Shown: one piece after another, positions 20,979 through 46,057 of the stretch
Layout: every line of letters starts with the position of its first letter
How positions within the stretch are numbered: the first letter of the stretch is position 1
Assembly: GCF_037975245.1 (NCBI RefSeq)
Contig: NC_092572.1
Coordinates: forward strand, 13,830,269 to 13,894,268
Length of the DNA: 64,000 nucleotides
DNA from: Apostichopus japonicus
Taxonomy: Eukaryota; Echinodermata; Holothuroidea; Aspidochirotida; Stichopodidae
Direction of reading: 5' to 3'
The notes under the pieces: generated by a model
What the model saw: only the letters and a program-made list of their open reading frames with translations
Databases searched by the model: none
Told to the model about the DNA's origin: nothing
Translations under genes and position numbers: made by a program

Positions 20979-23900
20979 TCAGGGTAACAGGTGACTACCT
21001 CGACAAGTAGCACTAAACTTCTTGTACAGTTTATGAAATTTATCCAATTTGATGTAGGCTCTCCTGCCCCTATTTATTGCCTCTGTGATCAGTTGAGCTT
21101 CTCTTAGACTGGTAGCGATACATGTGACTTTCCTGGCTGACATGGAAGTCCGTTTGATCCTCTGTAATACAAGTAAAAAGAGACTGACATTAAATATCTC
21201 TAGCCCGACTGTTCAGTGGTCGTCTGCTATCACACAAGTTGTATAGAGCAGCATACAATACTCTGAGCAACATGTGATGCTGGCAGGAAGAAATCTTTAA
21301 GGTCCACCACCTATTGGTGAAGTTTGCCAGCTAACAAGTATAATGAACCCACTGTAACTGTTATGATACGTTTGTTCATTGTGATTGTAGTTCCAGCACC
21401 CTTACATATACCTAAGGCAATATATGAATGTCACACCTAATAGCTATGCAAGGATAATAGATACGTGTACATAGGTCTCTGAACAGAGGCATAGCATTTG
21501 GGGGGTTCAAGATGTTCATTGAACCTTGTCCCCAATGTCAAGGCAACTTCCCCCTGCCCCCTCCCAAGAAAAAAGAAAGTTGGTTAAATTTTTTGAAGAA
21601 ACAGATCACATCTGAAGTTCATGTTTTTGCATGAATAATTACATTGGTAAAGAACATTATGCCATAGATGCCTTAGTCTGCTCTATTTCATGAACAAATG
21701 ATTTTCTAAAGTCTGACAAATTAACTGTCCAGTTCAATTGATACCATACCCATTACCGTGCCTCTTCTCAACTGTAACATCTATACAGCTTCCGTCAATT
21801 GCAGTTTAGATGAAGTAATTGGTCAAGGAACCCGGGTCTTACCCTTGAACCGAGATCTCTGAAAGCCTAGCTACACCAGTACTGAGTGTGTACCCTGTCT
21901 GGCATTAGCAGTTTTATATATGTTCTTAGCTCCTACAGTTTGTGATGATTACTTATTCATTTTGGCTATGCAAGGAGACATGTTGAGTGTTGATGTTACT
22001 TGCATTAAGCAACAGAGTATTACTTCCTGCCTTTGTGAAACTGCATTATAACACATTAGTTGTCCTATAGCCTACACTACCTTTGTGTTAAAAAATAATT
22101 TGCATTTTGATGATTTCAACTATCATATACACTTCCTACAAAGTTATTTGTCACATACCAAGAGAGACCAAGTTTTGCAAGTCTGAAAATGGAAACACAA
22201 ATGACAATTATACCTTTTAAAATAATTCCTAAATATTATTTTCTTATTAGTTTGAGTAGTTTGTTTATCACAAGGCATCTCAATAACAAAAGGAAAGATG
22301 ATGGTTTGGGTTTTTATTCCCCATGAAATAAGTAAACATACCCTTGTGGGATTAAGACAATGCAGATAATCTTCTCTGATTTGAATGCTTCGCTTCAACT
22401 TCTTCTCATATTTCACCCGTTTTATTTGTTGACTGCAAAACCAGGTAACTTCCATTGCTTCCCCAAGAGGCAGTTGTCTCTTCTTTGCTTTCTGAAATTA
22501 ATATATGATAGATTAATATATGAACCATAGCTAACTGACTGGGATATTGTAAACAAAATTGTAAAGATCTCTTCTTTTCTAAAAAAAAAAACCCAAAATA
22601 AATAAATAAGTAAATACATGGATAGATAGATAAATAAGTATATATATGAACAATAGATAACTGACTGGGAAATTGTTAACAAATTTGAAAAGAGCAAAGG
22701 AATAAACCCTCCCCCCCTCCACACTTCTTTTCAAAAAACACCCCAAATTAAATAAATAGATAGATAGATATTGATTGGTTCCTTATGTCCAAGTTATATT
22801 GAATTGTTTTCCTCTTTTAACGTGAATAGCAGAGTTTCAAACTTTGCCGGGAACATCCTTATTATCAATTCCATCTCTACTGACATACCGGTCATGCTTT
22901 TTCAGGTAGTGGCACAGGTCTAACAAGTTTAGAAAGGACCTAAATATGAAACAATACAAATTCAAACTTACTTTGAATTTCTTTTTCTGAAGAGATGAAA
23001 TGCATCCAAGGTTCGGGATGGAGTAGGGGTGATCTTTGGACACCATCTCTCTCTTGGGCAAATGGACCTTCCTGTCTACACGACTGCCAGCGTCATCACC
23101 AGGTGTCTTACTTGTCATTTGTTTGGTATCGGCTGAGGACACTGGAGGAATGGATGTTTCACTGCTGCCAGTGGGATCTGCACCAGAGGCCGGCTTTTCC
23201 AAGTGACTGGAGATGACCTGCATAACCTTGTCCTGCAAACTCTGAATTGCTCCATTTGTCTTGTTTTGGTTTCCTTTCTGGTGAACTTTCTCTGAAGCAG
23301 GTTCTGACGTTGGCTTGTGAACTGTATCTCCACTTTCAGAAGGTGAGAGACCAGTTTGTGTATTTTGTGAAGGACTGTTCACTGCAGGCATCTTCCGATG
23401 TGAGTTCGTCTGATCGACCGATGAGTGCATGGGTATAAGAGGAGGGGGTGCCGCCTTTGGTAAGTGGTTGGTGGGTGATTGTTCAGTTGGTTGTAAACTC
23501 TGAGGTCCAGCAGGAGGTTTCTGTAAATTCAATGATCCTGTGCCGACTGCTGTCTTGGGAGCTGATCCGAGGATCAGGAGATTGTGAGGTCCATTCTGTG
23601 AATTGCAACTGGGTGCGACAGGTTGGTTAGGAGGCAATACAGATCCATCATTCAAGGTCGTCATACTGTCCGTCACTGGATGGCTAGTAGACACACCAGC
23701 AGCACTGGGTATGTGGGTTAAACTGGGTGCAGCTGGATGGCCGGTAGACACACCCGCAGCACTGGGTATGTGGGTTAAACTGGTAGCAACTGGATGGCTC
23801 GTAGACACACCAGCAGCACTGGGTATGTGGGTTGAACTGGTAGTAACTGGATGGCTCGTAGACACACCAGCAGCACTGGGTATGTGGGTTGAACTGGTAG

Positions 23901-26900
23901 TAACTGGATGGCTCGTAGACACACCAGCAGCACTGGGTATGTGGGTTGAACTGGTAGTAACTGGATGGATCGTAGACACACCAGCAGCACTGGGTATGTG
24001 GGTTGAACTGGTAGTAACTGGATGGCTCGTAGACACACCAGCAGCACTGGGTATGTGGGTTGAACTGGGTGCAGTCGGATAGCCGGTAGGCATACCAGAA
24101 CCACCGTGTGAAGTCAAATTGGATATAACAGGGATGGTAGAGAGAACGTATCTGCTCTCTGCATTCGAGTTGGAGATAACAGGATGGTTGACGGATCCCA
24201 TGGAACCACCAGGTGGGATCAAACTGTGCGTAAGGGAATGTCTAGGAGGCTCAACAGAGCCACAGATCAAATTTGGCATCAGAGTACGAAGGCTTGGGGA
24301 CATAACATGTCCAACGTGTGAGTTCAAACTGGGTGTAACAGGATGGCTAGGAAGTATGATGTAACTGGCAGGCCCGACACCAATGGGAGCTGATAGGGTA
24401 GTCGATCCTGGAATCTGTGCTACACCGACCTGACCATCTTGGCGCTGTAGAGCTGACACAGGAAGTCTTAATATGGTATTGGGATACTGACGAGGGCGCA
24501 TTGGTTGGTTCAGAGACCTCATCACGTTGGCTAAGCTCTGCGGGTCTGCCAAATCTGCAGCATTACCAGCTGTGTTACCGGACGGTGCGAGTCTGCCGTC
24601 CGCGGTCTGCGTTTCTATCTGTGGGATATTTACCACTGTGGAAACACTCTGGCCGCCGACGGCGAGGAATGATCTGCGGGCAGCTTGAAGTTCCTGAGAC
24701 AGATTGCTGGGACCTGGACGAGCTGATGCAGTATTCGATGCTGGATTTGTATTGGCTACGTGTTCCATACTACCATATACCACCGGTCTCCTGAGGTGCC
24801 GAGGAAGGTTGAGATTGTGAAGTCTTTGTTGGTAATTTGCTAGCCGGGATGAGTTGCCCTCTTTCTTCCTGATGGAGGCCGCTATCATGCTATTGATGTG
24901 TCCACAAACCCTACCGGATAGGTACAAATGAGACTGAACATTTAGGATACATTGCGTGGACGCACTACCTCTCGACACTGATCGGACTTGGCGGGCTGCA
25001 TTCAACGAGAAACTCTCTTCTACTGCCTTGGCAAATTTTTTCCTGAGACTTCGGTTTTCTTTGGCATCTGCCATTCCAACAGTTTCCTTGATCTCTGAAG
25101 AAGTCATAATTTTAAGGGGCGAACGTTTGTAACCGTTTGTTCGATGAAATATATCGCTCAGCGTCGGAAACAGCGGTGTCTCTTCAAATTCTGGATTAAA
25201 GTGACCCATTGGAAAACCATATTTCAGATTGCTTTCGTAGTTTCTTCTGGCTGTGGGTGTCATGGGTTTATTATCGATGACGGGTTTTAATTTGAGGTAG
25301 GCGGCTATGGTTGCACCCGTATTACGTAAATGGGAAGGATTATACAAGAAGTTGTAGCATCCATTCTTGAAGATTTCCAATTCCTCCACTGACGCTCTGA
25401 TCAGGGCATCCACTTCTCTCACTTCATCTGGTGTCAGACCTCGGTTGGCGGACATCGAAAATAATGCATCTGGCAAATGCCACGTTGCCTCTTTTCTGGG
25501 TTTTTGTCTTGACTTTACTACAGTAGGTCTTGTACACACCTTTTTAGGAACAGTGCCAGTGTTTATCATTTCTTGGCATCTATCTTCCGTCCTTTTGGCT
25601 CGATTTAAAGTCGTTTCATTTCCGTGGATACCATGTACCGCACCGGACATCTCAACGGCTCTCGGCTTCCCTTCGACCCTCCTTCTCTCTGTTGAAGGGT
25701 CTGGTCTTTGGTTTGCGCCTCCACTATCGATGGTTTCTTTGCTTTTAACTTCACCGTTCCTGCTTGGTCTCTTACCCTTCGTCTGTGCACTGCTGACGTG
25801 CAGCATTTCTGCTTCGGTCGCAGGTGGTGAGTGAAGAACATTAGTCAGCTGTTCGCGTTGCTTGCTCTCCGTGAGCTTCTGAGACAGAGCTAATCTGTAT
25901 GACGTAGAGACGGAATGGACGCTCAGATTGTGACGTTTCAATGCTCTGGTATCCTGAAAGACTTTCTGGCATTCATTGCAGAATGGAGTAGACAGAGAAG
26001 TGTTGCTTCCATTGACAGGAATGGATATGGAGTTCCTTGGCTCTGTCTCTCCCTCCCTATCTTCACCGACCACTGCTCTCAACTGATTGTAAGTACGGGG
26101 AGTGTGTGTGACGATCATGTGCTCCTCCAGAGTTACATAGCCTGGTATATCCTCCAGACATAACAAACATTTCACCATCGCCCTTGGCACACTTTTACCT
26201 GCCTTATGATCATCTTGTAATGATCGCAAAGCCTGAAATGAGAGGGCCGTGTCAGGAGAACCTAAAATCTTGCCACAGATCATGGAACCCATCTGGCCCT
26301 TCTTATAGCACTTGACTTTTCCCAAAATCTGTGCACGAACCGTCGACGGAGGCTTAGACAATGCTGTGAGGTCGATGGGTGACTTTCCATCTCTGGTGAA
26401 AGTCAAGGACTGCACTTCGTGCAGATCTTGGTCCTGGTGTTGCTTTAGTGTGTGGGTCTTTGCAATCGTTTTGGTTTTGAATCTCTTTGGACAAAACGGG
26501 CAAATGAACTGGTGGTTTTTCAAGTTGTGAACGAATCTATAACAGTTGGAAACGAAATCGACCTGACAAGCCTTGCATGTCAGAGTACCTGGAGGCCGTG
26601 GTAGATTATGCTGTAGCAACACCTGGAGAGATGGGATACAGGCAGCACATGTCATACACATGCAACTGCAGGCTTCGTATCCTATCCATACTTCGATGGG
26701 TGCCGGGAACCACTCGATCTGTGTCAACCTTTTCCTAGGTTTACCCTGTGATACTGACACATCTGAACTTCCCATTTCACAGTTCTGTGATACAACGTCT
26801 GGGCTTGGCAGAGGACTAACCTGTGGTATAACGCTTTTGCATTCTACACTCGGATGGGAGGAGCGATGGCTTTGTCTGCAAAGTGCGCTCGGATTTACTT

Positions 26901-27537
26901 GGTCAGAGTTCTGCTCTCGTTCTTGGTGGTTGCCTCTCCTTTCGTTGCGCCGACCATCTCTCTCCCCGTTTGCAGATTCTTGACTTTGGTTGACAACAGT
27001 TGCCCTGTCATTGCACTTGTGCGTTATGAGAACGGTCGGGTCGATAAATCCTACCTTGCATTTCTTGCAAACGCTATGAATGAGCCGTGGACTTTTCACC
27101 GCCCTGACTTTGCGGAGCTTCGAAACTGCTTTCCTCTTCGAGGCAACCTCTGGTGACTCTTGCTTGACCTGTTGAACCTGCTTTGGTTGGTTCTCTCTCC
27201 CTTCCGACGGGAGAGGCGTCCGCAGATTAGACTCACAGGTCACTTCCGAGACGTCTTTTGTAGCGATCGTTTTGAGAACATCTTCAGCTGAGTACTTTGA
27301 ATTTAGTGCCACTTCTTCTTTCTGCCCATAGCCTACATTTATGATGTCACCGAGTTTCTTAAGGTCAAAGAGTTTCAGTCGGAGTGACTTTCTCGGTCCA
27401 CTGTCGGCTTTGGACTTGACTTCATCTGGACCACGTTTCTTCCCTCTCGTCGGTGAAGGACTCGTGCTCGAAGAAAGCACGGACCTGCGTCTAGGGGACC
27501 ATCGCTGGGAGTTTTCAGATCCAGTATTCCAAGACAT
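20979..27537 (-). CDS. Large C2H2 zinc-finger protein, about 1632 residues, with a coding minisatellite
   Basis: Exons 27537-22972, 22491-22342 and 21161-20979, all GT/AG and phase 0. The first alone encodes 1522 residues. The N-terminus is basic and Ser-rich. Zinc-finger-like pairs: C157/C160 with H173; C297/C300-like and C321/C324 with H337; C346/C349 with H362/H367; C457/C460 with H473/H478; C520/C523 with H536/H541. Residues about 700-960 are a compact, non-repetitive, probably folded region that I cannot assign (for example NGCYNFLYNPSHLRNTGATI). Then come a Ser/Pro/His-rich low-complexity region and about seven 19-residue repeats of the IPSAAGVSTSHPV type (residues about 1150-1290). The basic C-terminus is encoded by exons 2-3 and ends shortly after KFHKLYKKFSATC. 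A nuclear DNA- or RNA-binding role is inferred. No family name can be given. Exon 3's end could instead be a splice donor at CGAG/GTAGTC. Confidence 0.85.
23672..24084. repeat. 57-bp minisatellite inside the zinc-finger coding exon
   Basis: About seven units, each exactly 57 bp, so the frame is kept (19 codons each). Central units from about 23776 to 24055 are almost identical, including at synonymous sites, differing at single bases (for example GGCTCG versus GGATCG). The minus strand encodes IPSAAGVSTSHPVTTSSTH-like units. Confidence 0.95.
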
Positions 27538-27544
27538 AGTTTAG

Positions 27545-32695: not shown

Positions 32696-33364
32696 TTACT
32701 CACCGTTTTTGTTAACTTACTTCATAAATTACTTTTCAAGTTTCAGAATATCTTAAATGTGTCACGTGACAACATAGGCTGCGCTATTCTCTAGCTACTC
32801 GGGAGTGATCGAAGAAAGCAGTATGTTTTGTTTGTGTGTACATGACGTAACATTGACAAGAAAAAATCATAGGATGCATGATTCGTCGAAATCGAGCTAA
32901 AATATAGAATTGTGGTTAATTTGCATGTGTTGAGGTGAAAGTTCTTTTCTAATCATGTATAGCCTATATAGCTTCAGATTTTGTCAAACAACTAAACCAG
33001 CAATGTAATATTTGGTGTACGTTTTACTGCGAGTGGGACGAGGGAGCGAATGGACCTCTATATAATGGCAAAGGAAGTTCGAAGACTATAGTGCGTGGCA
33101 GCAAACCGCCGGGTCACCGGCATTTCACGAAGTAGTTATGTAGATGTTACAGTGGTTTCATTCCGACCTGCTTATGCCATGGAACTACTTCGTAAGTAAA
33201 TCAGTAAGAAGAGGAATTAATTTTCATAAATTTCAATCGACTTTTAATTATCATTAATAGTAAATTAGCGAGGGGACGAGGGAGCGAGTATATGTTTCGC
33301 CGTCCATCGTCAGAAGATAATACACAAACTTTTTATTAATTCTTAAAAATATTAATACTTAAAA

Positions 33365-33622
33365 ATGATGGGAACAATATGAATATTTGTGAGGTACGAA
33401 GTAGACCAATTGTAACTTGTTTTCTAGCCACGCCCATCGTCTCTATCAGGCACAACGGATATGAACATGTCAAAGAGAGATACACATTGTCGAGGGTACC
33501 GTCGAGACATTACAGTGTTTTGTGCAGGACGCAATCCCCCTCTACAACAGTGGTATGATCTCTAAATGGTATCGACCAGAAACGAGAACTGTTTAATTCG
33601 TCGTCGAATGCTGTTTATAATC
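33365..33622 (+). pseudogene. Broken duplicate of the second-Ig exon of the downstream receptor
   Basis: Over 90% identical by eye to 36482-36740, including about 60 bp of the preceding intron and the TTTCTAG acceptor. It carries an inserted AG (AAAGAGAGATACAC against AAAGAGATACAC) that shifts the frame, a rearranged CAATCCCCCTCTACAAC, and TGATCT for TGGTCT. Identity stops at TTTATAAT, mid-exon, so there is no donor. It lies 1.2 kb upstream of the receptor's first coding exon. Decayed partial segmental copy. Confidence 0.88.
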
Positions 33623-34829: not shown

Positions 34830-37800
34830 ATGGCGAAAGATTTTCGTCTATTTCTATTTTGTGTAGCGTCCTTTCTTCACGGTAGGCATATTTTTTATTT
34901 ACAGCGCTTTACACCACTGCTTTATATATTTTTGCTAAATGTCTTAGTATTGCTAGAGATAAGGTTTCTACTTCTACTGATTTACAGGAGCTGTTAGACA
35001 AACCAATGGTCAGGGTAACTGTTCGATGCCAGACGGACCTTCTAATACAACGATTGAACTATGTGATGTTAGCCTTAGAGGTTCGGTTTGCTTACAATGT
35101 CCAGTATCGAGGGGCAGTACTTCACTGCAATGGTGGATCATGCGTGAAGGACAGAAGGAAATGATCTTTCGAGATAGATATAGCACTAACGAACGTTATA
35201 AGATATTTCTTATCAACAAATGCCATTCAAGTCACTACACACTGACCGTCCCTAATATTAAACCTGGAGGTAATGACGGGATGTACTTTTGCTTAGTACA
35301 CGGAGATGATATCGCGGCTTCGTTCTGGATAAAAGTTACTGGTAAGTTATATAGTTACTTAAAGTATACATCTGAAAAGGGCAAAGACATTATGGGTTAA
35401 AATGGCATCCGGACCAGTAACCTACAGGTTGCAAGCCCTGTGATTAACCAACTGAGCTATCAGTTACCCGTAGTTGGTTAAGACCCCTATAGGTTACCAG
35501 TTCCTTTGTGGGGGAGCCATCAGTTCTGGTTGCGCATGTAAAGTACGAATTTAACATTTTCCGAGTCTCATTTTATCTTAAAATATAATAGCACATTAAC
35601 TTGTTTCTTTCCATCTGTAAGGGCTGCAGTGAGTGTAACTGTTAATTACATGATTGAGACGCTCGCAATTTGAAACCTACATTTGTATGACATTGGGCAA
35701 GGTGACCAGTTCCTACGTCAGTGCTTTTATTTTAAACCACGACCCAATGTTGCGCTCTTTTAACAATCACAAAACATCACATAGTATATATATATAAATT
35801 ATTACATATTATTATGTAGGGGCATAGACAAACGTAGATAGTAATAATCAATGTCTGCAGATCTTAAAGTTGTGAATATGTTTTTCTTAAGATTGAAATT
35901 TTCCACTCTTTTGACAAGCGTTAATACTGACATGAAAATGAATGTGATTGACGAAAATGGTACAAATGATATTTATGAAGTATACACGTTGAAATTAACC
36001 CTCAGTTGACAACATTAATCTACGAGGATGTCTAATTATTATCATCAAGCATTGACCCGAGCATAACAAACGTTTGTTAGGCATATATATGTGAGAGAAC
36101 AACCCAACAACAGCAAATACCAACTGCTCGCTAAACACTTCCATAATTGGTATGCGTATTAACATAACTTATCTGCGTACAAACGAAAGCTATACAATAT
36201 ATCTCTCTAACAGTGGCATGTGGTTTCGGCAAGGTGACACGTTGACTACAGTTTAGTGTATATGATGGGACGTTAAGCCGGTCGCGCATGTACTATCTAG
36301 ACTGAACGTGTATACCGACTCAACTTGACAGGAAAGAGTAATGATAGTCAAAAGACGTAAGCTACAGGCAAACTGCCTGATAAACAACGATTTCCGTGTT
36401 TCGGTGGTATACTCTATAGAGTTGAGTCGTTATGCAATCAAATCGGACAGTGTGTGGCCCGTCTTTAATAGTAGTACAAAATGATGGAAACATCATGAAG
36501 ATTTGAGAGGTACTAAATAGTCTAATTGTAACTTGTTTTCTATAGCCACACCCATCGTCTCCATCAGGCACAACGGATATGAACATGTTAAAGAGATACA
36601 CACTGTCGAGGGCACCGTCGAGACATTACAGTGTTTTGTGCAGGACGCAATACCCCCTACAACAGTGGTATGGTCTCTAAATGGCATCGACCAGAAACGA
36701 GAACTGTTTAATTCGTCGTCGAATGCTGTTTATAATTTTACGTCAGATTTCAAGTTCACGTCTTCTACGTCACATGAGGAAGTACACTGTATCTGTAGCG
36801 GCCCTGATATTTTGATGAGAGAAGTCTCGGCTAACTTTGTAATAGAAACTAAATCAAAAGCGAAAGGTAAGTAAGAACGAGTTCATTGAGACTGCAATGT
36901 CAAGTGTAAACGATTAGTGTCATTAAAAAATAACTATTAAATTCACCACAAAGAAAGAGTAATTTTGCATCTTTTGTTAAAATAATTGCAACGGCTGAAA
37001 GGAAAATAAATATTACAGTACATTGTTGATACAAGAACTACTAGACGAAATCCAATCCAAAGTTATTTTCAGACAGACGATGGAAATTAAGAAATAGCTC
37101 ATCTCAATGCACAAACCATTTGATTACGAAAACGGTTTCGAGTAAACAACGCCATTGAAAAAAATTAAATTTCAACAGTTTCCTCTTTTGAACCTATCTA
37201 CAGATGAGCATAATTCAGGATCCGACGGGACGACGTCACTACTGGCTGTCATAACAATCACTCTTGTTTGCTTTCTTGCTTTGATCATAATCCTTACAGT
37301 CACATTCATCGTAAGGAGATGTAAACAAAGTAAGCTGCTCTTTTAGGTTAACTTGTCACGTGATGGAGTGTTACGACATAGAAGTGTTAGCTCAGTGGTT
37401 AACGCCGATTCCTTTCAATCATAAGGTCCCGAGTTCGAGTCACTCCAAGATTAATGTATGTCGTCCAGTTACAGAGTTGTTGACAATTGACAATTCATAA
37501 CCATGGACGTTAAATATGCATGTAAGAGACTGACTCCGGTCAGCTTGTGGCCTTGATAAGCCAATGATGGCTTCTTCGCGAGTTCCTGCTTGCAGGAGGA
37601 TCTCAAATACATACATACATACATACATACATACATACATACATACATACATACATACATACATACATACATACATACATACATACATACATACATACAT
37701 ACATACATGGTCTTCTCACCATTAAGCTGGTCAGAAGAAGCATTCAAATATGGTTGATATTAAATTTGTGATATCCGATTAGAATGGCTATGCAAAGCTT

Positions 37801-40800
37801 CACCAATGTCGAAAGCGCCCAAACCCTACTCATAATGGAAAAAAGAGGATTGAATCTGACGGGAGGGGCAAACATCGAGGGTCAGAGGGACATCAACATG
37901 GGGCACCTGGCCACTGTGTTGCTATTCTCCCCTACCAGCACCCCTACCCAAACCAATTCCATCATCCATGTTTTGTCTTTTGTAAATAACTTATATCGTA
38001 ATAGTTATATTAAATTCTTGAAACAAAAATTCATATGGAGCACTTCGTTTTTATATTCATGTCATATGCTTTGAGATTCCAACTTGCACTTGCATTTATT
38101 AAACGAAGATGTACCGATGATAAGTCCATCAGAGCAAGCAGTACATGCGAGGAACTCTCTTATTTACACACAAGGCCTGCATGGGTATATTTGTAGAATA
38201 CAAACAAACTTCTGACATTGATCTCTTTCTTTCTATTATCTTCTTCAAGGAAAACGTAGCTTTAAAGCTCAGTCGTGAGTATTCCAAGGTTATTCATTTA
38301 GATTTCTCTTAACTAACATCTATGACCACCATATTTAGTTACATCATATGATAATTAGGAGTGTAAGCTCAATGGTTAACACCGGTGCCTTTCAATCGTA
38401 AGGTCCCCGGTTCGAGTCACTCCCAGATTAATGTATGTCGTCCAGTTACAGAGTTGTTGACAATTGACAATTTATAATCATGGACGTTAAATATGAATGT
38501 AAGAGACTGCTTTCGGTCAGCTTGCGGCTTTGATAAGCCAATGAGGCTTCTTCGCGAGTTCCTGCTTGCAGGAGGATCTAAAATACATACATACAATACT
38601 GCAAACCTTCCGTATACATACACTCGAAATTGTATCCACCACATCAGTAATATCTATACATCTAAGGAATTCTATAATGTTGAGTGTATTGTTTGGCGCC
38701 TCGAGGTTTTTTCCTTCTTATCACAAGAAATTGTCTGAATCTGTCTCGCTCTTCAAGTAAATGCACAGTCCTAAAGTTAACGTGGTTTCATTTTCTTTTT
38801 CTTCATGTTAGGATCTGGAAGAATGGAAACATCTATATTTGAAAATTTTGTTTTGCAAAGACTATTAAATTATTAAGCTTAAATCTATCAATATATTCCA
38901 TTCTTGAACGAATATCGTTCTATAGTCATCCCTCATTTTACTCACTTGCATATCATCCCAAGGCTGCAGTATAGTCTGTCAATGATGTTTATTCTTTTTG
39001 TTTCACAATTTCTTATTTGATTTCATAGAACTCCCTTACCGGTCTTACCAATTTCTGAAAACCTAATACACGAAGATGTACTCTATGAATCACCAGATGA
39101 ATTACAAGGTTTCCGTTCTTTTTCTTTTAAAATTCATTTGAAACAAAGTAGACTTACATGCATCAATTGTCGTACATTAGATATTCTTGAAGAAAGAGAA
39201 ACCCAATGGCTTTAGGTATAGTAAAAAATAGTTGCTATAGGCTTGTTATTTATATAGTCTATAGCAACTACTTTTTTGGACACAAACTTATTTCTAACTA
39301 AAACACTTCGGATACTTTTTGTATTGTGTGGGAGGGTGTATTGCAATATGCTAGTTTTGATCAGAAGCCTGCCAATATGCACATATCAACTGAGTAAGAC
39401 AGGCTTTGCTGCATTTTCGTACCATTACGTAATAATCTTCTTTTGTCACTTTACATTGTATTTGAAAGTCTACATCCAACATTTTCTTCCTCAGAGGTAA
39501 GATATTAATGCAACATATATGATGATAACATAACTTGTTGATGTGTTCACGTCACGTGGGATATCTGATTGGTGTTCATGGATACTGACACAGCTAAGAA
39601 TGACGAGAAATTCCTTATTGAATTAGTGGCTAACAAATTGGCATTGTGTGTCGTTTATTAACAATTGACAGCAACAGTTTCTGCACAGGAATCTAAATTG
39701 ACCACATACGTTAAAATCTTCATCATTTACAGTCTAAAACAAAGTTCACATCAAATTATTACTTTGTAACTATATGGTATGTCATGATGGTCTGTCATGA
39801 TTTTATCCAGTGGTAGTTCCACGTCTATGAATTGGCTTTGATCGTGTTGAATCGAAAGCATAAGTTACACTTGTGCTAATAAACATATCAGTCGAGATGT
39901 TCTGTATATATGCACTTGACACAGAATAACGACCGCACACATTGTGAGCTGCCACAAGTACCTATTGTATTAGGCTAAGAGCAATAGGTGATCAAATTCA
40001 TATTTTGCGTGTTCAGTTTCGTGTCTGGAGTCGACCAAACTTACTTTGCACTTTATGCACATCATTGTCTCGGAAAAATCTGTTACATTTTTTTTTTAAA
40101 TCATATCAACTTCCTTGAGCAAGCACTCAGAAATGTTTATCAAACCGATTTGACAGAAGAGTAGTTTAATCAATCAAATGTTTGCCTTTAATACTAATAA
40201 TGTCTCGAAGATGGTTATGTTAATATTCAAATGGCAGTGCTTAAAACTTACAAAAAATAACTTCCTGTGTAGACAAGAAATTACCTTGTTGTTGAAAGAT
40301 ATGAGACTTATGCACGGGACAGACAAGTTAGAGTTAAGTTGCTTATTTACACTACCTATCACGAGAGTATGGACGGAATTGATGTGCGCGTTGTTTCGGT
40401 TGTATATATGTTTTTTTTTTTTTATAAAATATGCACTTCAAGTATTGTATGAAAACTAGCTGTTTCAAAAATTGACATTTCATCATCTTTTCAAAGAAAT
40501 AATTAAACTATAATATGCATTTCATGTCTGATTTATAGATGTTGTGTACTTTTATGGAGACAACGTTGTTTATCATCGATCAGACATTTTGCTTGGGAAA
40601 CGTCTGCAGAGCTCAGGACGTATGATAAGATGGACAGCTTCTCTTCAAAATGGGAACAGACCATCATTTATAGCTAACACTTTACCAGGTATTACTATCA
40701 ATCAAACACTATTAAACTTGCATGAATGATTTTGTGTTTCTTTCGACTCTTTGATAGTATTTTTTCATACAATAGGACAAAGCATATGTAAGTTAGCTCG

Positions 40801-43029
40801 TGCCTCCTTGACATATAGTCGTGATGACATAATTGGTTGTGAAACTATGTGTTAATTATTTCCAGCTCACTTTATGAGACAAAACGACTTGTAATTGATA
40901 TGCTAATGTTTGATTACGGCAATTTGATTGACAAGGAAGTTGTTATACCTACACTCAATAAAAGAAAACTAACAACGGGATATATAAATGAAGTTTTAGT
41001 AAATCCACAGTTTGTCTGGTCAAATAATTTACTTGAACATTTACAGTCAACATATTGTATCTAACACCGGTATTATTATTTGTGGGATATAATAATCATA
41101 CATTTAATGATGATTTACGTTGTTAGTTAATATCTCACCATGGGAGTAAATGATATCTATTAACGCATATGCAAATACATATAGATATCATACATAAATA
41201 TCCCTAAACGTTTTTTTAATATGTTTTAATATTTTTATAGTAGGAAGTTTGGAATACTGGAAGTTTGATAGATATGATACTAAGGGTCATTAGTACTAGC
41301 ATGCTAAATATTATCAATTGTTCCCATATATATTTTCCTTCGTGCTTTACCCAACCTAATCATTCCCAGACATAGGTGGGTTTAAAGTAGACTATTATTA
41401 TAATAATAATAATAACGCGATTTTCATGGTATCCCTCCAATTCTAATCAAAACTGTCACTACTTGGATACATTCACGTATCATGCAGTTATGGATCCATT
41501 TAAAACCGTTAGCCATTCAACCAGCTAAAACAAAGATCGCTGAGTTTTTGTCTGTTTCACTTGTACAACCGTCAGAGTTGTAATTATGAATATATTTACG
41601 TACCTGTGTGTGTTTGTGCATGTTTTAGTTTCTATTCTCTCACTTTTATTTATTAAATTATGTTTGTTTTGGTAATTTCTTACCTATTTTTCCTTTCTTT
41701 GGGCTGTTGATTTCTTGCTTATATTACAGATTCTTCATCGAGGGATGATTGGTGTGAGATTCGATTGTTTGCAGAATATCTTCGTAACATACCAAAACAT
41801 GTGAATATTGTCGACATCGTGGGATGTGACACTAATAAAAGTACCGTAATAAAACTTGATATTCTATTTCATGATACGAATCCCACAATTTAATGTAAAC
41901 TCAGAATGCTGCAATGTATCATGTAATATAATAAGTGCAGAATCTCTAACCAGGTCATTTTTTGGATTAAATCGTTACCTATATGATAATAGTTTACATT
42001 TCAAAATTATACCGTTATTAAACGATTACAAGAAAGAACAAAAAAACATCTTTTGATTCACTGTTTGAAAGATTTTCGTTTCTTCTTACTGTATACTCTT
42101 GACAGCTCCTCACTTCATTTACACTGAATATGTAACAAATGGAACACTGAAAGACTTCCTGGGTCAAAGTTCAGATGGAAATGAATATTCAACATCTATT
42201 TACAGCCCTCATGGTGACTCAGCTACCGCGTATGCTAAAATAAAGCAGTTGGCGTCGTTCTGCTATGGGGTTTTGGATGCAATGATTTTTCTAGAATCAA
42301 TAGACGTAAGTTGTGAAACGTATAGGCTAGCTAATTATGTAAAAGGTGTCAATAATTACAGCCATGTTTTCTTCTTTCTAGTGATCGTCACTGGCGTTTC
42401 TGCTCTCAATGATGGTGTTCGTTTACCGTCCGAAGAACAAGTTAGCCTAAGCATGTAAAATGATAGCTAAAGGCATAATCATATTTGACCAACACTTAAG
42501 GAGAGTTAGCTCAGTGGTTAGCGCCGATTCCTTTCAATCATAAGGTCCCGAGTTCGAGTCACTCCAAGATTAATGTATGTCGTCCAGTTTAAGAGTTGTT
42601 GACAATTGACAATTCATAATTATGGACGTTAAATATGAATCAAAGAGACTGACTTCGGTCAGTTTACGGCTTTGATAAGCCAATGACGGCTTCATTGCGA
42701 GTTCCTGCTTGCAGGAGGATCTAAAAAAAAATTACAGAAAAAAAATACTCCTCTGTTAGTGCTAGAAATAAACGTAAAGGTGTTCTTTAGGGCGAAGGTA
42801 GTTATGACGAATAAGTAATTTGCAAGATTCTTAAAATGATACAATAGGTTTCTCTTCTTTAAATTAACTAAATTCTAAAATTAATACATATATGCATTGC
42901 ATATATATTAATTTGCATTGTGGAGGAATTGTCTCTATGTTTCACAGGTTATTGTTGACCAGGGTTATATTGTTATGCGCCTTAAGCACAATTATCGGAG
43001 GATATGTCTGCGCTTTATAAATCCAATTA

Positions 43030-43093
<64 letters not shown>

Positions 43094-46057
43094 GGGGGAA
43101 ATGTTCTTCTAGTCAATTACCTGTTTATAGAATTACTTTCTTGTCTTTTCATGTCAAATTCCTTCGAGACCACAGGCGTATATGTGGGCACGAGAAATGC
43201 ACTTTTTATTTTGATTTATATGCACTTACTATTTTGATTTATTATTCTAATACCAGCATCAGTAGTTAAATACGTCAATAAGTAGTGTGGTAGTTACAAT
43301 ATTTCATGACTTAAGTTAATATCCCGTACCCATATATATCTCTGTTTTCTCTACTGAAATTTGAGAACTCTTGCATTCTGGCTATTTAGTGTGCTATTAT
43401 AAGTACAGACCATTATAATCCACTGATTCTAAACTTCTCAGTGCGATCATCCTGGAGTATGTGCTAAAAAGGTTCTTATGACTTCCAGAGATGTCTGTAA
43501 ATTATATGATTTCAACGCCTGTTCAACCACCAAGAAGTTTATATCCGGCATAGACTTTGAGGTACGTATTGTATGGAAACCTAAAATGGTACAAATAACT
43601 CAAAGTTTACATTTTGGCTTAAGATCTTCTTTACCTTTACTTGAACTAGACACATCACATCACATACATGAACTGACATATACTTAATATATCTTTTCGT
43701 CAATTATTAATATATTTAAAAAAATATTTAACTTTCTTAATATCTGATTAAACTTAATTAAAGTTAAAGTGGATAAAGTACATAGTTAACAATTGTTGGT
43801 TGATGTGAACACTAAAGGAAGTTAAACTGGATATTAAATGAAGATAAAACAGATATTTAGGGAAATAGAAGTAGTTATTTAGGGATTATAAAGTAGATTT
43901 TTAAGTCAATTACAAGTTACTTGTCCCTTCATGTCCTCCATTGTATGGAGAATTTTGCCACTTCTAGTTTCTTACGTTAATCAAAGTATTGTAATCATAT
44001 AATCAAAATATTGTAATCTCTTTAAAACTGAGGGCGTTAACCAACTTTGATGTTTCAACGTTAACTTGAAAAAGTGTCCCTATGTGTGAGTAACAGATAC
44101 TTCAGGCTTTGTTGCCTCGACACGTTTTATCTGCATCCATCAGAACAGGTCGCCAATGATGGCGAGGGTATGGCCTTGTATACCCTCCACTATAACATCA
44201 GGTCGTTTGAATTTTGTGAGGTATCACGTAAATGTATATATTTTACTGACACTATACTATCATTTGCAGAGATGTAGCCGTCTCCCATGGTTTGCACCAG
44301 AAACGATATTCAAACGTGAATACAGTCGTTCAAGTGATTCATGGTCTTTTGCAGTATTCATGTGGGAGGTCTACTCAAACGGTAAAGTAACAACTGTACC
44401 TTTTTGTCAAGGAAGCTACCATGTAAGAAAGAATGTTTCTCTGACAGCCAGGAAGACAAAATATTATGTGTATTTCTCGCTTGTTGTTTGCACCGAATGA
44501 AGTTATAAAAGTTAATTTTGTATGTATCTTGCATAAATGTACTGAAAACCCTGACAAATGAAAGAAATGAAATATTACATCAGTATGGGTCTTACATATA
44601 CTTCAAGATTTCAAACATTTAAAACAGTTTGCATTTTCCTGCAGATCCGAGGTCACAATTTCTTCTTGAGTCGCTTATTAAAAACACTCTTCATAAATGA
44701 CTATGTAATTTCAAATTACCACATGCCATTATATAAGTGTGGTAGCTGCGTTACATTTGGAGGCAGGAAGAACATTTAATGAACATGATATTTTCTTCAA
44801 TAATTCTTTTTTTCTGTCCTTGACTGATTAATTGTACAAAGGCCTACACGGATTATTTTCTTGTCACAGGTGAGACACCATTTATCCAGCGAACATTAGG
44901 TGACATTAAATCTGCATTTGATGAAAGCCCTCCTCTGTCGCAACCAAAGCTTTGTCCGAATGAAATGTAAGCACCGTACACTGTTACACATGAATATAAC
45001 ACAATGCAATATCATATTTTGACAGTTCTGGTCGTTTCAATGTAATCTACAATGCTATATACTAATTTCCAGTTACACTGTGCCTACTCTGAAAAGTAAT
45101 CATTCCCTATAAACTGTTAAGATTATCACTGAAAGAAACTTATTCTATATTATTCTGTAGCGTAAGATGTATATTTTGCAAATGTCAACCGTGTGTTATC
45201 TTCTCACGTAAGTTTGATGTTTTACTGATTGTCTTGGGTTTTTTCCCTTCACATCCGACGCAGGTTGTTGCATTTTGACTTAACTTTAACGCATCACTGA
45301 TTGTTAATCTCTATTTTATTTGTGTAGTTAAATACACAGTAGTTCACCATTGTCTTATTTCACTCCAATAATAGCTACCTGTTAATGAAACGTTGTCTTT
45401 GTCTTCAACCCGATAAGAGAATAAAGTTGGCAAAGCTCAAAGAAGAGATAAAACGATTCATTGATGGTGAAAGTGACGTAAGTATGATCCAATTGTTTCG
45501 AGGATAAAATCGGCATTTAGAGAATTATACTCGACATATTCTTTACAGCAGTCCTAATGGGTCTCCTCCTTTAGAGGACCTTTTGTTTTAATTTGGTAAA
45601 GGGGCTGACATACAAGTTCAATCATTGTATCTACATTATTGTAGTACAGGTTTGGATGATTTGCACGGCATGTCAACATGCCGTCAATTCCGAGTATACT
45701 AAAAAGAATGATTAACAAGAAATTAATTCCATTATTTCGTGATTGTATCGGAGGTCGTATATCCCTCATTGTTTTGTTATTCACAATTCAAAGACCAACC
45801 ATGATACATTCATCTTTTATGGTTGTCTTTCTTAAAGCAAAATATATGAGAGTTAGCGTATCATTCATTTTAATTTCTTAAAGCCTACCTGCCTCTCTGC
45901 ATTCTTATTATATTTAATTTTCTTTTCTTTTAAACTTAAATCATTTTCTGAAAATTAGGCTGCATTAGGTAACTTAAAACTAAAGAAACTTACAGAACCA
46001 TCGTTATTTTTCGAACTGCTTACAAAGAAAAGTCTTTCACAGACTAATGAGAGATAA
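34830..46057 (+). CDS. Receptor tyrosine kinase-like pseudokinase with two Ig domains, 649 residues
   Basis: Fourteen coding exons: 34830-34881, 34988-35341, 36546-36866, 37204-37329, 38250-38274, 39029-39108, 40539-40688, 41730-41840, 42106-42305, 43442-43561, 44270-44381, 44870-44966, 45375-45477, 45959-46057. All introns are GT/AG and all phases agree. Signal peptide [18 protein letters not shown]; Ig1 about 25-135 (W in LQWW, closing DGMYFC); Ig2 about 136-240 (LQCFV, VVWSL, VHCIC); membrane span about 255-279; acidic juxtamembrane [13 protein letters not shown] with Y312; kinase fold about 330-615. Decisive changes: VAVK-type Lys is N366 (FIAN); HRDLAARN is H-P-G-V-C-A-K-K at 476-483, losing the catalytic Asp (G478) and Asn (K483); DFG is DFN (496-498); the Gly loop is degenerate. 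The APE motif (522-524) and [12 protein letters not shown] helix remain. Reads as a membrane receptor that binds ligand or partners but probably cannot transfer phosphate. RTK subfamily not assigned. Confidence 0.9.
35405..35480 (-). repeat. tRNA-like relic in receptor intron 2
   Basis: Minus strand: GATAGCTCAGTTGGTTAATC (A box), CAGGGCTTGCAACCTG (anticodon-arm-like with TGC), then GGTTACTGGTCCGGATGCC. The B box is poor. A tRNA-derived SINE fragment or pseudo-tRNA, not a functional gene. Confidence 0.5.
37382..37606 (+). repeat. SINE family B, copy 1 (receptor intron 4)
   Basis: tRNA-like head with A box TTAGCTCAGTGGTTAACGCC and B box GAGTTCGAGTC, then a body with GATTAATGTATGTCGTCCAG, TTGTTGACAATTGACAATTC, ATGGACGTTAAATATG and GAGTTCCTGCTTGCAGGAGG. 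Followed by a long (ATAC)n tail. Copies 2 and 3 lie in other introns of the same gene, all on the plus strand. Confidence 0.88.
37607..37708. repeat. (ATAC)n microsatellite, SINE B tail
   Basis: About 25 ATAC units directly after the SINE B body. Copy 2 has a short ATAC run at the same place, so the array grew from the SINE's own 3' tail. Confidence 0.95.
38357..38597 (+). repeat. SINE family B, copy 2 (receptor intron 5)
   Basis: Same head and body as copy 1 (GGTTCGAGTCACTCC, GTATGTCGTCCAGTTACAGA, TTGCAGGAGGATCTAAAATA), with scattered substitutions. Ends in ACATACATACA, 82 bp after the 25-nt exon 5. Confidence 0.88.
42499..42728 (+). repeat. SINE family B, copy 3 (receptor intron 9)
   Basis: Same head and body as copies 1 and 2 (GAGTTCGAGTCACTCCAAGA, TTGACAATTGACAATTCATA). 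The tail is an A-run rather than ATAC. Confidence 0.88.
42913..43030 (+). repeat. SINE family A, 5'-truncated copy (receptor intron 9)
   Basis: Contains only the 3' half of family A: GGAATTGTCTCTATGTTTCA, CAGGTTATTGTTGACCAGGG, GGATATGTCTGCGCTTTATA then AATCC. Passes directly into an (ATT)n tail. 5' truncation is typical of target-primed retrotransposition. Confidence 0.85.
43031..43093. repeat. (ATT)n microsatellite, SINE A tail
   Basis: About 21 ATT units at the 3' end of the truncated SINE A. Confidence 0.95.

Follow-up and report, generated by a model that had tools for sequence, protein, structure and literature searches.

Receptors of the FGFR family usually carry three immunoglobulin (Ig) domains in their ectodomain, and the ectodomain of PTK7/CCK4 carries seven. 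In mammalian KIR/LILR and Hydractinia Alr, tandem gene copies combine diverging Ig ectodomains with conserved signalling parts, many copies are pseudogenes, and the arrays signal through short ITIM/ITAM-type tails. Kinase-fold receptors without catalytic residues are represented in humans by eight receptor pseudokinases, whose catalytic loops read HRG....H, HRS....S, HRN....N or HKD....N and whose pseudokinase domains can serve as allosteric partners and scaffolds (PMC13259870, Table 2). Caenorhabditis elegans has a lineage-specific receptor kinase family, KIN-16, of which one member, FLOR-1, is without the HRD Asp and the loop Asn (HRALALRS); it acts in immunity, where it regulates the active OLD-1, and oomycete recognition depends on it (PMC10523662).

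We analysed a window of 64,000 nucleotides of the sea cucumber Apostichopus japonicus (C12:13830269-13894268) that carries, at 34830-46057 on the forward strand, a gene which, judged by its sequence, very probably codes for a cell-surface receptor that crosses the membrane once, with two Ig-like domains outside and a tyrosine pseudokinase domain inside. Our best explanation of the whole, to which we give a probability of roughly 0.6, is a lineage-expanded family of receptor pseudokinases whose signalling is non-catalytic and probably works through pairing with active kinases. The predicted protein resembles the eight human receptor pseudokinases in being single-pass, in having a kinase fold without catalytic residues and in its proposed non-catalytic signalling, but its set of changes (HPG....K, DFN and a beta-3 Asn) matches none of the eight (0/8), and whereas those are separate single genes, ours belongs to a multigene array with divergent ectodomains (comparison with PMC13259870). 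PTK7/CCK4 is likewise unlike it, with an HKD loop and ALG there against HPG, DFN and two Ig domains here (motifs from PMC13259870). Within KIN-16, OLD-1 and other members have the motif and FLOR-1 does not (PMC10523662), whereas all 18 family members whose loop exon we read are dead; KIN-16 is specific to C. elegans and our gene comes from a sea cucumber, and the likeness is functional only. Receptor pseudokinases as such are already known; what differs here is the change set, the fact that it is fixed throughout a multigene array, and the swapping of ectodomains, and in the open-access literature, the scope of our search (subscription journals lay outside it), we found no paper on such a receptor pseudokinase array. 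With the KIR/LILR and Alr arrays the family shares a tandem arrangement of copies, diverging Ig ectodomains, a more conserved signalling part and broken copies; it differs in that the tail is a whole pseudokinase domain, and no ITIM was found.

The focal gene comprises 14 exons with a coding sequence of 1950 nt (649 residues plus stop), all 13 of its introns run GT...AG, and the frame stays open throughout, so that the 14 exons joined in phase into a 649-residue Ig receptor by the sequence-only reading stand as proposed. The features of the locus are given below, with reference to two close paralogues, P1 (C12:13.446 Mb) and P2.

33348-33621, + strand: duplicate of exon 3 plus the intron flank upstream of it, truncated at the 3' end and broken by indels and an in-frame stop (90% identity)
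34830-34881, + strand: exon 1, carrying the start codon and a probable signal peptide (hydrophobic core judged by eye)
34988-35341, + strand: exon 2, Ig1, V-set-like (V-set E=3.9e-4; 21 against 26 bits, under the Pfam cut-off)
36546-36866, + strand: exon 3, Ig2, C2-set-like (C2-set_2 E=3.1e-4; 21.2 bits, barely over the cut-off of 21)
37204-37329, + strand: exon 4, predicted transmembrane helix at about residues 255-281 (hydropathy peaks at 3.22, at residue 255)
38250-38274, + strand: exon 5, juxtamembrane, conserved in P1 and P2
39029-39108, + strand: exon 6, juxtamembrane with PLPVLP and Y312-E-S-P
40539-40688, + strand: exon 7, kinase beta1-beta3, Lys replaced by N366 at 40676-40678
41730-41840, + strand: exon 8, alpha-C to beta-4, Glu replaced by F383 at 41768-41770
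42106-42305, + strand: exon 9, hinge to alpha-E
43442-43561, + strand: exon 10, catalytic loop HPGVCAKK (HPG at 43448-43456, K483 at 43469-43471) and DFN at 43508-43516
44270-44381, + strand: exon 11, APE and alpha-F
44870-44966, + strand: exon 12, C-lobe
45375-45477, + strand: exon 13, end of the C-lobe with the conserved Arg (PDKR)
45959-46057, + strand: exon 14, short tail and stop, the least supported exon

The order is thus a hydrophobic leader, two Ig-like exons, a single transmembrane (TM) helix, a juxtamembrane stretch and a kinase domain, and an ATG exon with a hydrophobic product stands at the position equivalent to exon 1 in both P1 and P2. The two Ig matches, obtained in a Pfam search with the ectodomain alone, are weak. 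The acceptor of exon 14 is unconserved in P1 and P2, and of the 99 nt of this exon only 73 align in P1 and 69 in P2; the last 33 residues are less sure for that reason. The kinase domain matches PF07714 over residues 370-607 (E=7.3e-43), which together with the exon-specific conservation in the paralogue (Fisher p=2e-57) excludes chance.

Five residues of the kinase active site (the beta-3 Lys, alpha-C Glu, HRD Asp, loop Asn and DFG Gly) are lost in this protein, and it does not show the motif set of active receptor tyrosine kinases (VAIK Lys, HRD Asp, loop Asn and DFG). The beta-3 Lys is replaced by N366 (FIANTL, 363-368), the HRD triad reads H476-P477-G478, the loop Asn is K483 (loop 475-485), and the DFG triad reads D496-F497-N498 (LYDFN, 494-498). 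Four of these losses (Lys to Asn, HRD Asp to Gly, loop Asn to Lys, DFG Gly to Asn) had been named by the sequence-only reading and are confirmed here, as is its placing of the alpha-C Glu at F383, since the phmmer alignment with FGFR2 runs without a gap from the beta-3 Lys to the alpha-C Glu. To these we add the change of the HRD Arg to Pro, that of the twin activation-loop tyrosines of FGFR2 from YY to FE and, by eye, LQSSGRM in place of the expected LGXGXXG glycine loop. The DFG Asp, the APE Glu (APE 522), the alpha-F Asp/Trp (DSWSF 536) and the C-lobe Arg are kept. We considered E379, one helical turn earlier and with a four-residue insertion behind it, as the true alpha-C Glu, and rejected it: the FGFR2 spacing is equal without any gap, the column of F383 holds Phe in four of the five intact kinases described below and Leu in the remaining one, and E379 is Gln in L040.

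A search of solved kinases with the assembled protein gave FGFR2 as the closest among the best 60 solved chains (phmmer, 9.6e-34), with KIT (1e-31) and an EGFR chain scoring near it among the same 60. With a profile of five family members FGFR2 reached 1.8e-44, and among the matches listed an EGFR chain came top by whole-sequence score (3.6e-45), a value that sums two kinase copies of 77.6 bits each. Among the solved kinases in those matches, sequence comparison places the kinase domain nearest FGFR. It is like FGFR1-3 in this respect and in its Ig-type ectodomain, single TM helix and C-lobe skeleton, and unlike them in having two divergent Ig domains and no catalytic residue beyond the DFG Asp; a separate, conventional FGFR-like gene lies on C5 (23.880-23.883 Mb; 49-66% identity by exon). 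The ectodomain matches no receptor tyrosine kinase class, as had been suspected, because it is family-specific and divergent.

A search of the genome (671,581,487 bases in 35 contigs) with the kinase domain gave at least 87 exon-level matches at E<=1e-5, other kinases included, and C12 carries most of the best of them, around 13.2-13.9 and 7.4-8.2 Mb. We read the DNA of 20 stretches of 10 kb and four small pieces, which yielded the catalytic-loop exon of 18 family loci (the focal gene, P1-P4, L039, L040, L042-L050, L052 and L053); two further loci, L051 and L054, gave the APE exon only, and no loop exon was obtained from L041. Fourteen of the 18 are of the DFN type (the focal gene, P1, P2, P3, P4, L040, L042, L043 and L045-L050), three of the DIC type (L039, L044 and L052) and one, L053, reads DFL. 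The HRD Asp is replaced in every one of these exons (by Gly, Ala, Val or Leu), Lys stands in place of the loop Asn in 18/18, and the DFG Gly is likewise replaced throughout (Asn in 13, Cys in three, Thr and Leu in one each), with the HRD His and the DFG Asp retained in all 18; the HRD Arg has become Pro in 17 and Leu in P4. At the beta-3 site, read in 15 loci, Asn stands in 12, Ser in two and Lys in one (L039). L013 on C2, which gave a nineteenth loop exon, is an intact kinase of a different kind (VAVK, HRDVATRN, DFG) and served as a control from the same genome, showing that the motifs survive assembly and translation; we also considered it as an active relative of the family, and rejected it as being only 26% identical and a kinase of another kind.

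Kinase exons 7-13 are all open in five members (the focal gene, P1, P3, P4 and L040), with a GC donor required at exon 11 of P3 and an exon 13 in L040 that seems to be terminal. Every pair of these five except that of the focal gene and P1 shares 40-56% identity, and its dS is saturated or exceeds 2.4, so that the dead site has been kept over a long divergence; and because other members of its multigene family occupy this chromosome too, the losses in the focal gene are old and no private accident. The sequences read point to a family that expanded along one A. japonicus chromosome and lost its active site before these copies diverged, after which the replacement motif, HPx....K ... D[F/I]x, was evidently kept. 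Among the loop exons read, no member has an intact HRD/DFG that would root the family. Active members may exist among the matches outside this reading, namely those on C7, C16, C20, C1, C5, C8, C2 (22.34 Mb) and C11 (4.05 Mb) and those on C12 at 7.395, 7.909, 8.125 and 8.159 Mb.

The three DIC loci (L039, L044 and L052, at C12:13.515, 7.687 and 13.198 Mb, respectively) form a second pseudokinase subfamily with loops of the form HP[VAL]...KK/RK, in which L039 retains the beta-3 Lys. VFVKTLK stretches in L042, L043, L047 and L049 were entertained as a second kinase gene, an idea dropped when L047, the one inspected, showed no loop or APE exon after the stretch. With FGFR2 as query, repeated tyrosine-kinase exon matches also occur at C17:13.17-13.61, C18:8.5-8.9, C19:8.83-9.13 and C21:13.30-13.48 Mb, clusters that by their matches are other kinase expansions in this genome.

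Downstream of the ectodomain the focal gene is far better conserved in its exons than in its introns. Exons 4-14 are 93.7% identical to those of P1 (1121/1197) and introns 74.5% (3937/5283), the corresponding values for P2 being 94.3% and 74.4%. Across kinase exons 7-13 the comparison with P1 gives a dN/dS of 0.232 (NG86), 0.287 (YN00) or 0.271 (ML), from 22 synonymous changes in 190.3 sites and 20 non-synonymous changes in 700.7 (Fisher p=5e-6). Relative to this paralogue, which takes the place of the orthologue that the sequence-only reading had in mind, the kinase exons are under purifying selection by codon statistics. Exons 4-6, encoding the TM and juxtamembrane parts, show no constraint in the same pair (dN/dS 0.83-1.09). 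The exon dS of 0.12 is well under the intron divergence of about 25%, and gene conversion between copies could lower divergence. The excess of exon over intron conservation, the kinase dN/dS and the family-wide dead site argue that this is not simply a dying gene, and the preference expressed earlier for a functional pseudokinase over a dead gene holds up: in all likelihood, on the sequence evidence, the gene is functional.

The outer half of the receptor has followed a different course. DNA similarity between the focal gene and P1 or P2 starts abruptly at 36799, within exon 3, and covers everything downstream, with nothing upstream at E<=1e-8. P1 carries two Ig exons of its own, which are 24% (24/99) and 26% (25/96) identical to those of the focal gene, against 94% (278/297) for the kinase. 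Comparisons of the focal gene and of P1 with P4 give 24-32% for the Ig domains against 53-54% for the kinase, so that fast ectodomain change is general among these copies. Between the Ig2 and TM exons of P1, and also in P2, lies a 68-nt tail of an Ig2 exon of the focal type, with an in-frame stop. This relic marks an ectodomain swap; read most simply, the ancestor of P1 and P2 acquired a new ectodomain in front of a TM and kinase part of the focal type. Upstream of the P3 kinase and on the same strand, a TM exon accompanies HYR-domain exons, of which the one tested gives E=1.5e-7; together they may form one gene with that kinase. In L035 and L036 (C12:13410500-13430499), HYR-domain exons and a TM exon lie upstream of a pseudokinase of this family, which may be the shared chassis under another ectodomain. 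Close to the focal gene itself, the broken exon 3 copy appears to be a local duplication that has since decayed. Between P1 and P2 the Ig exons hold nine non-synonymous and four synonymous codons against eight and nine in exons 4-8 and 10-13, and this excess of amino-acid change in the Ig exons is not significant (Fisher p=0.28). The widely differing outer halves hint at a role in recognition.

We hypothesize that the folded pseudokinase serves as a non-catalytic module: a ligand bound by the Ig domains would alter how the module associates with an active tyrosine kinase, that kinase would phosphorylate the juxtamembrane YESP tyrosine in trans, and SH2 and SH3 adaptors would dock on YESP and PLPVLP. 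The motifs PLPxLP (the focal gene, P1 and P2, with PLPKLP in P4) and YESP (the focal gene, P1 and P2) weakly suggest such docking, a step made weak by the lack of constraint on exons 4-6 as a whole. We regard non-catalytic pairing of the product with an active kinase as evenly poised; FLOR-1/OLD-1 pairing is comparable to it and is the nearest documented working (PMC10523662). That the family acts in recognition or immunity is a tentative suggestion, the step from this gene to immunity being one of analogy only; the swapped ectodomains make such a role (immunity or self-recognition) directly testable in an aquaculture animal. More doubtful as a complete history is a scenario in which the pseudo-active site was fixed first, the genes then multiplied, and Ig (perhaps HYR) ectodomains were recombined onto a shared pseudokinase chassis, making a dead receptor kinase the common cytoplasmic half of a multigene recognition system. 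If true, the family would form an array of animal receptors that all signal non-catalytically through a shared set of active kinases. An array whose loss of the active site preceded its diversification would also offer natural variants that can be compared for what a kinase fold does without catalysis.

The state of the family might be taken for decay, with the focal gene a recent receptor tyrosine kinase copy on its way to becoming a pseudogene and its residue losses neutral damage. At least 8 of 17 loci (the focal gene and 16 fetched) carry a stop, a frameshift or a lost splice site (P2, L041, L044, L045, L046, L047, L048 and L049), so the family gains and loses copies; the decayed exon 3 copy upstream and a dN/dS of about 1 in exons 4-6 point the same way. 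We nonetheless consider decay of this gene improbable, given a frame that is open through 14 exons and 13 GT-AG introns, a kinase dN/dS of 0.23-0.29 (p=5e-6), and losses common to copies only 40-56% identical, hence old and kept. It is also very unlikely that the true transcript differs, with unread exons or alternative splicing yielding an active kinase, or with the exons of two genes joined here. Exon 14 is weak and the donor of exon 6 poor (gtttcc), but exons 4-13 recur in P1 with the same boundaries, and loop and DFG lie within one conserved exon in 14/14 DFN-type members. Exons restoring the Lys, HRD or DFG, which the sequence-only reading had named as grounds for abandoning it, were not found in frame in the introns; a scan between exons 9 and 11 for an alternative exon gave no HRD-like loop, the single DFG match (42651) lies inside a repeat with stops on both sides, and the two V/I-x-x-K matches (40234 and 41440) have no kinase context.

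Two further readings accept a functional gene and assign the pseudokinase another part. As a decoy or ligand sink, the receptor would matter for its ectodomain, with the pseudokinase only keeping it folded, placed and inert, in a dominant-negative-like manner. Ectodomains that diverge much faster than the kinases would fit this, as would the cytoplasmic tyrosine motifs of the focal protein, which are YESP, YSNG and YLLM only, with no ITIM found; a pure decoy, however, would have no use for some 300 cytoplasmic residues that are conserved and include an invariant HPx....K and D[F/I]x, and no part of the protein is better conserved than the pseudokinase, which leaves this reading unlikely, if less so than decay. 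Far less credible is a cryptic enzyme that binds a nucleotide and transfers phosphate or another group by a rearranged site built on the DFG Asp and the loop Lys. Both of these residues are kept in 18/18 loci, and a conserved Arg (RW in beta-2) is present in 5/5 intact kinases, yet an acidic residue stands at the HRD position in 0/18, the focal protein is without the beta-3 Lys, the alpha-C Glu and the glycine loop, and L039, the sole member with a beta-3 Lys, has DIC for DFG. A receptor pseudokinase that signals without catalysis remains the reading we prefer.

The introns of the focal gene contain three copies (89-92% identical) of a 228-nt repeat, at 37380-37607, 38357-38584 and 42499-42726, of which the 5' part looks tRNA-like by eye (GTTAGCTCAGTGG...GGTTCGAGTC); ARAGORN called no tRNA in it, and it is probably a SINE. 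Elsewhere in the window, an open frame of 1567 codons lies on the reverse strand at 22840-27540; it includes a stretch of tandem repeats around 23.6-24.1 kb and gives weak matches to C2H2 zinc fingers that fall under the Pfam cut-offs.
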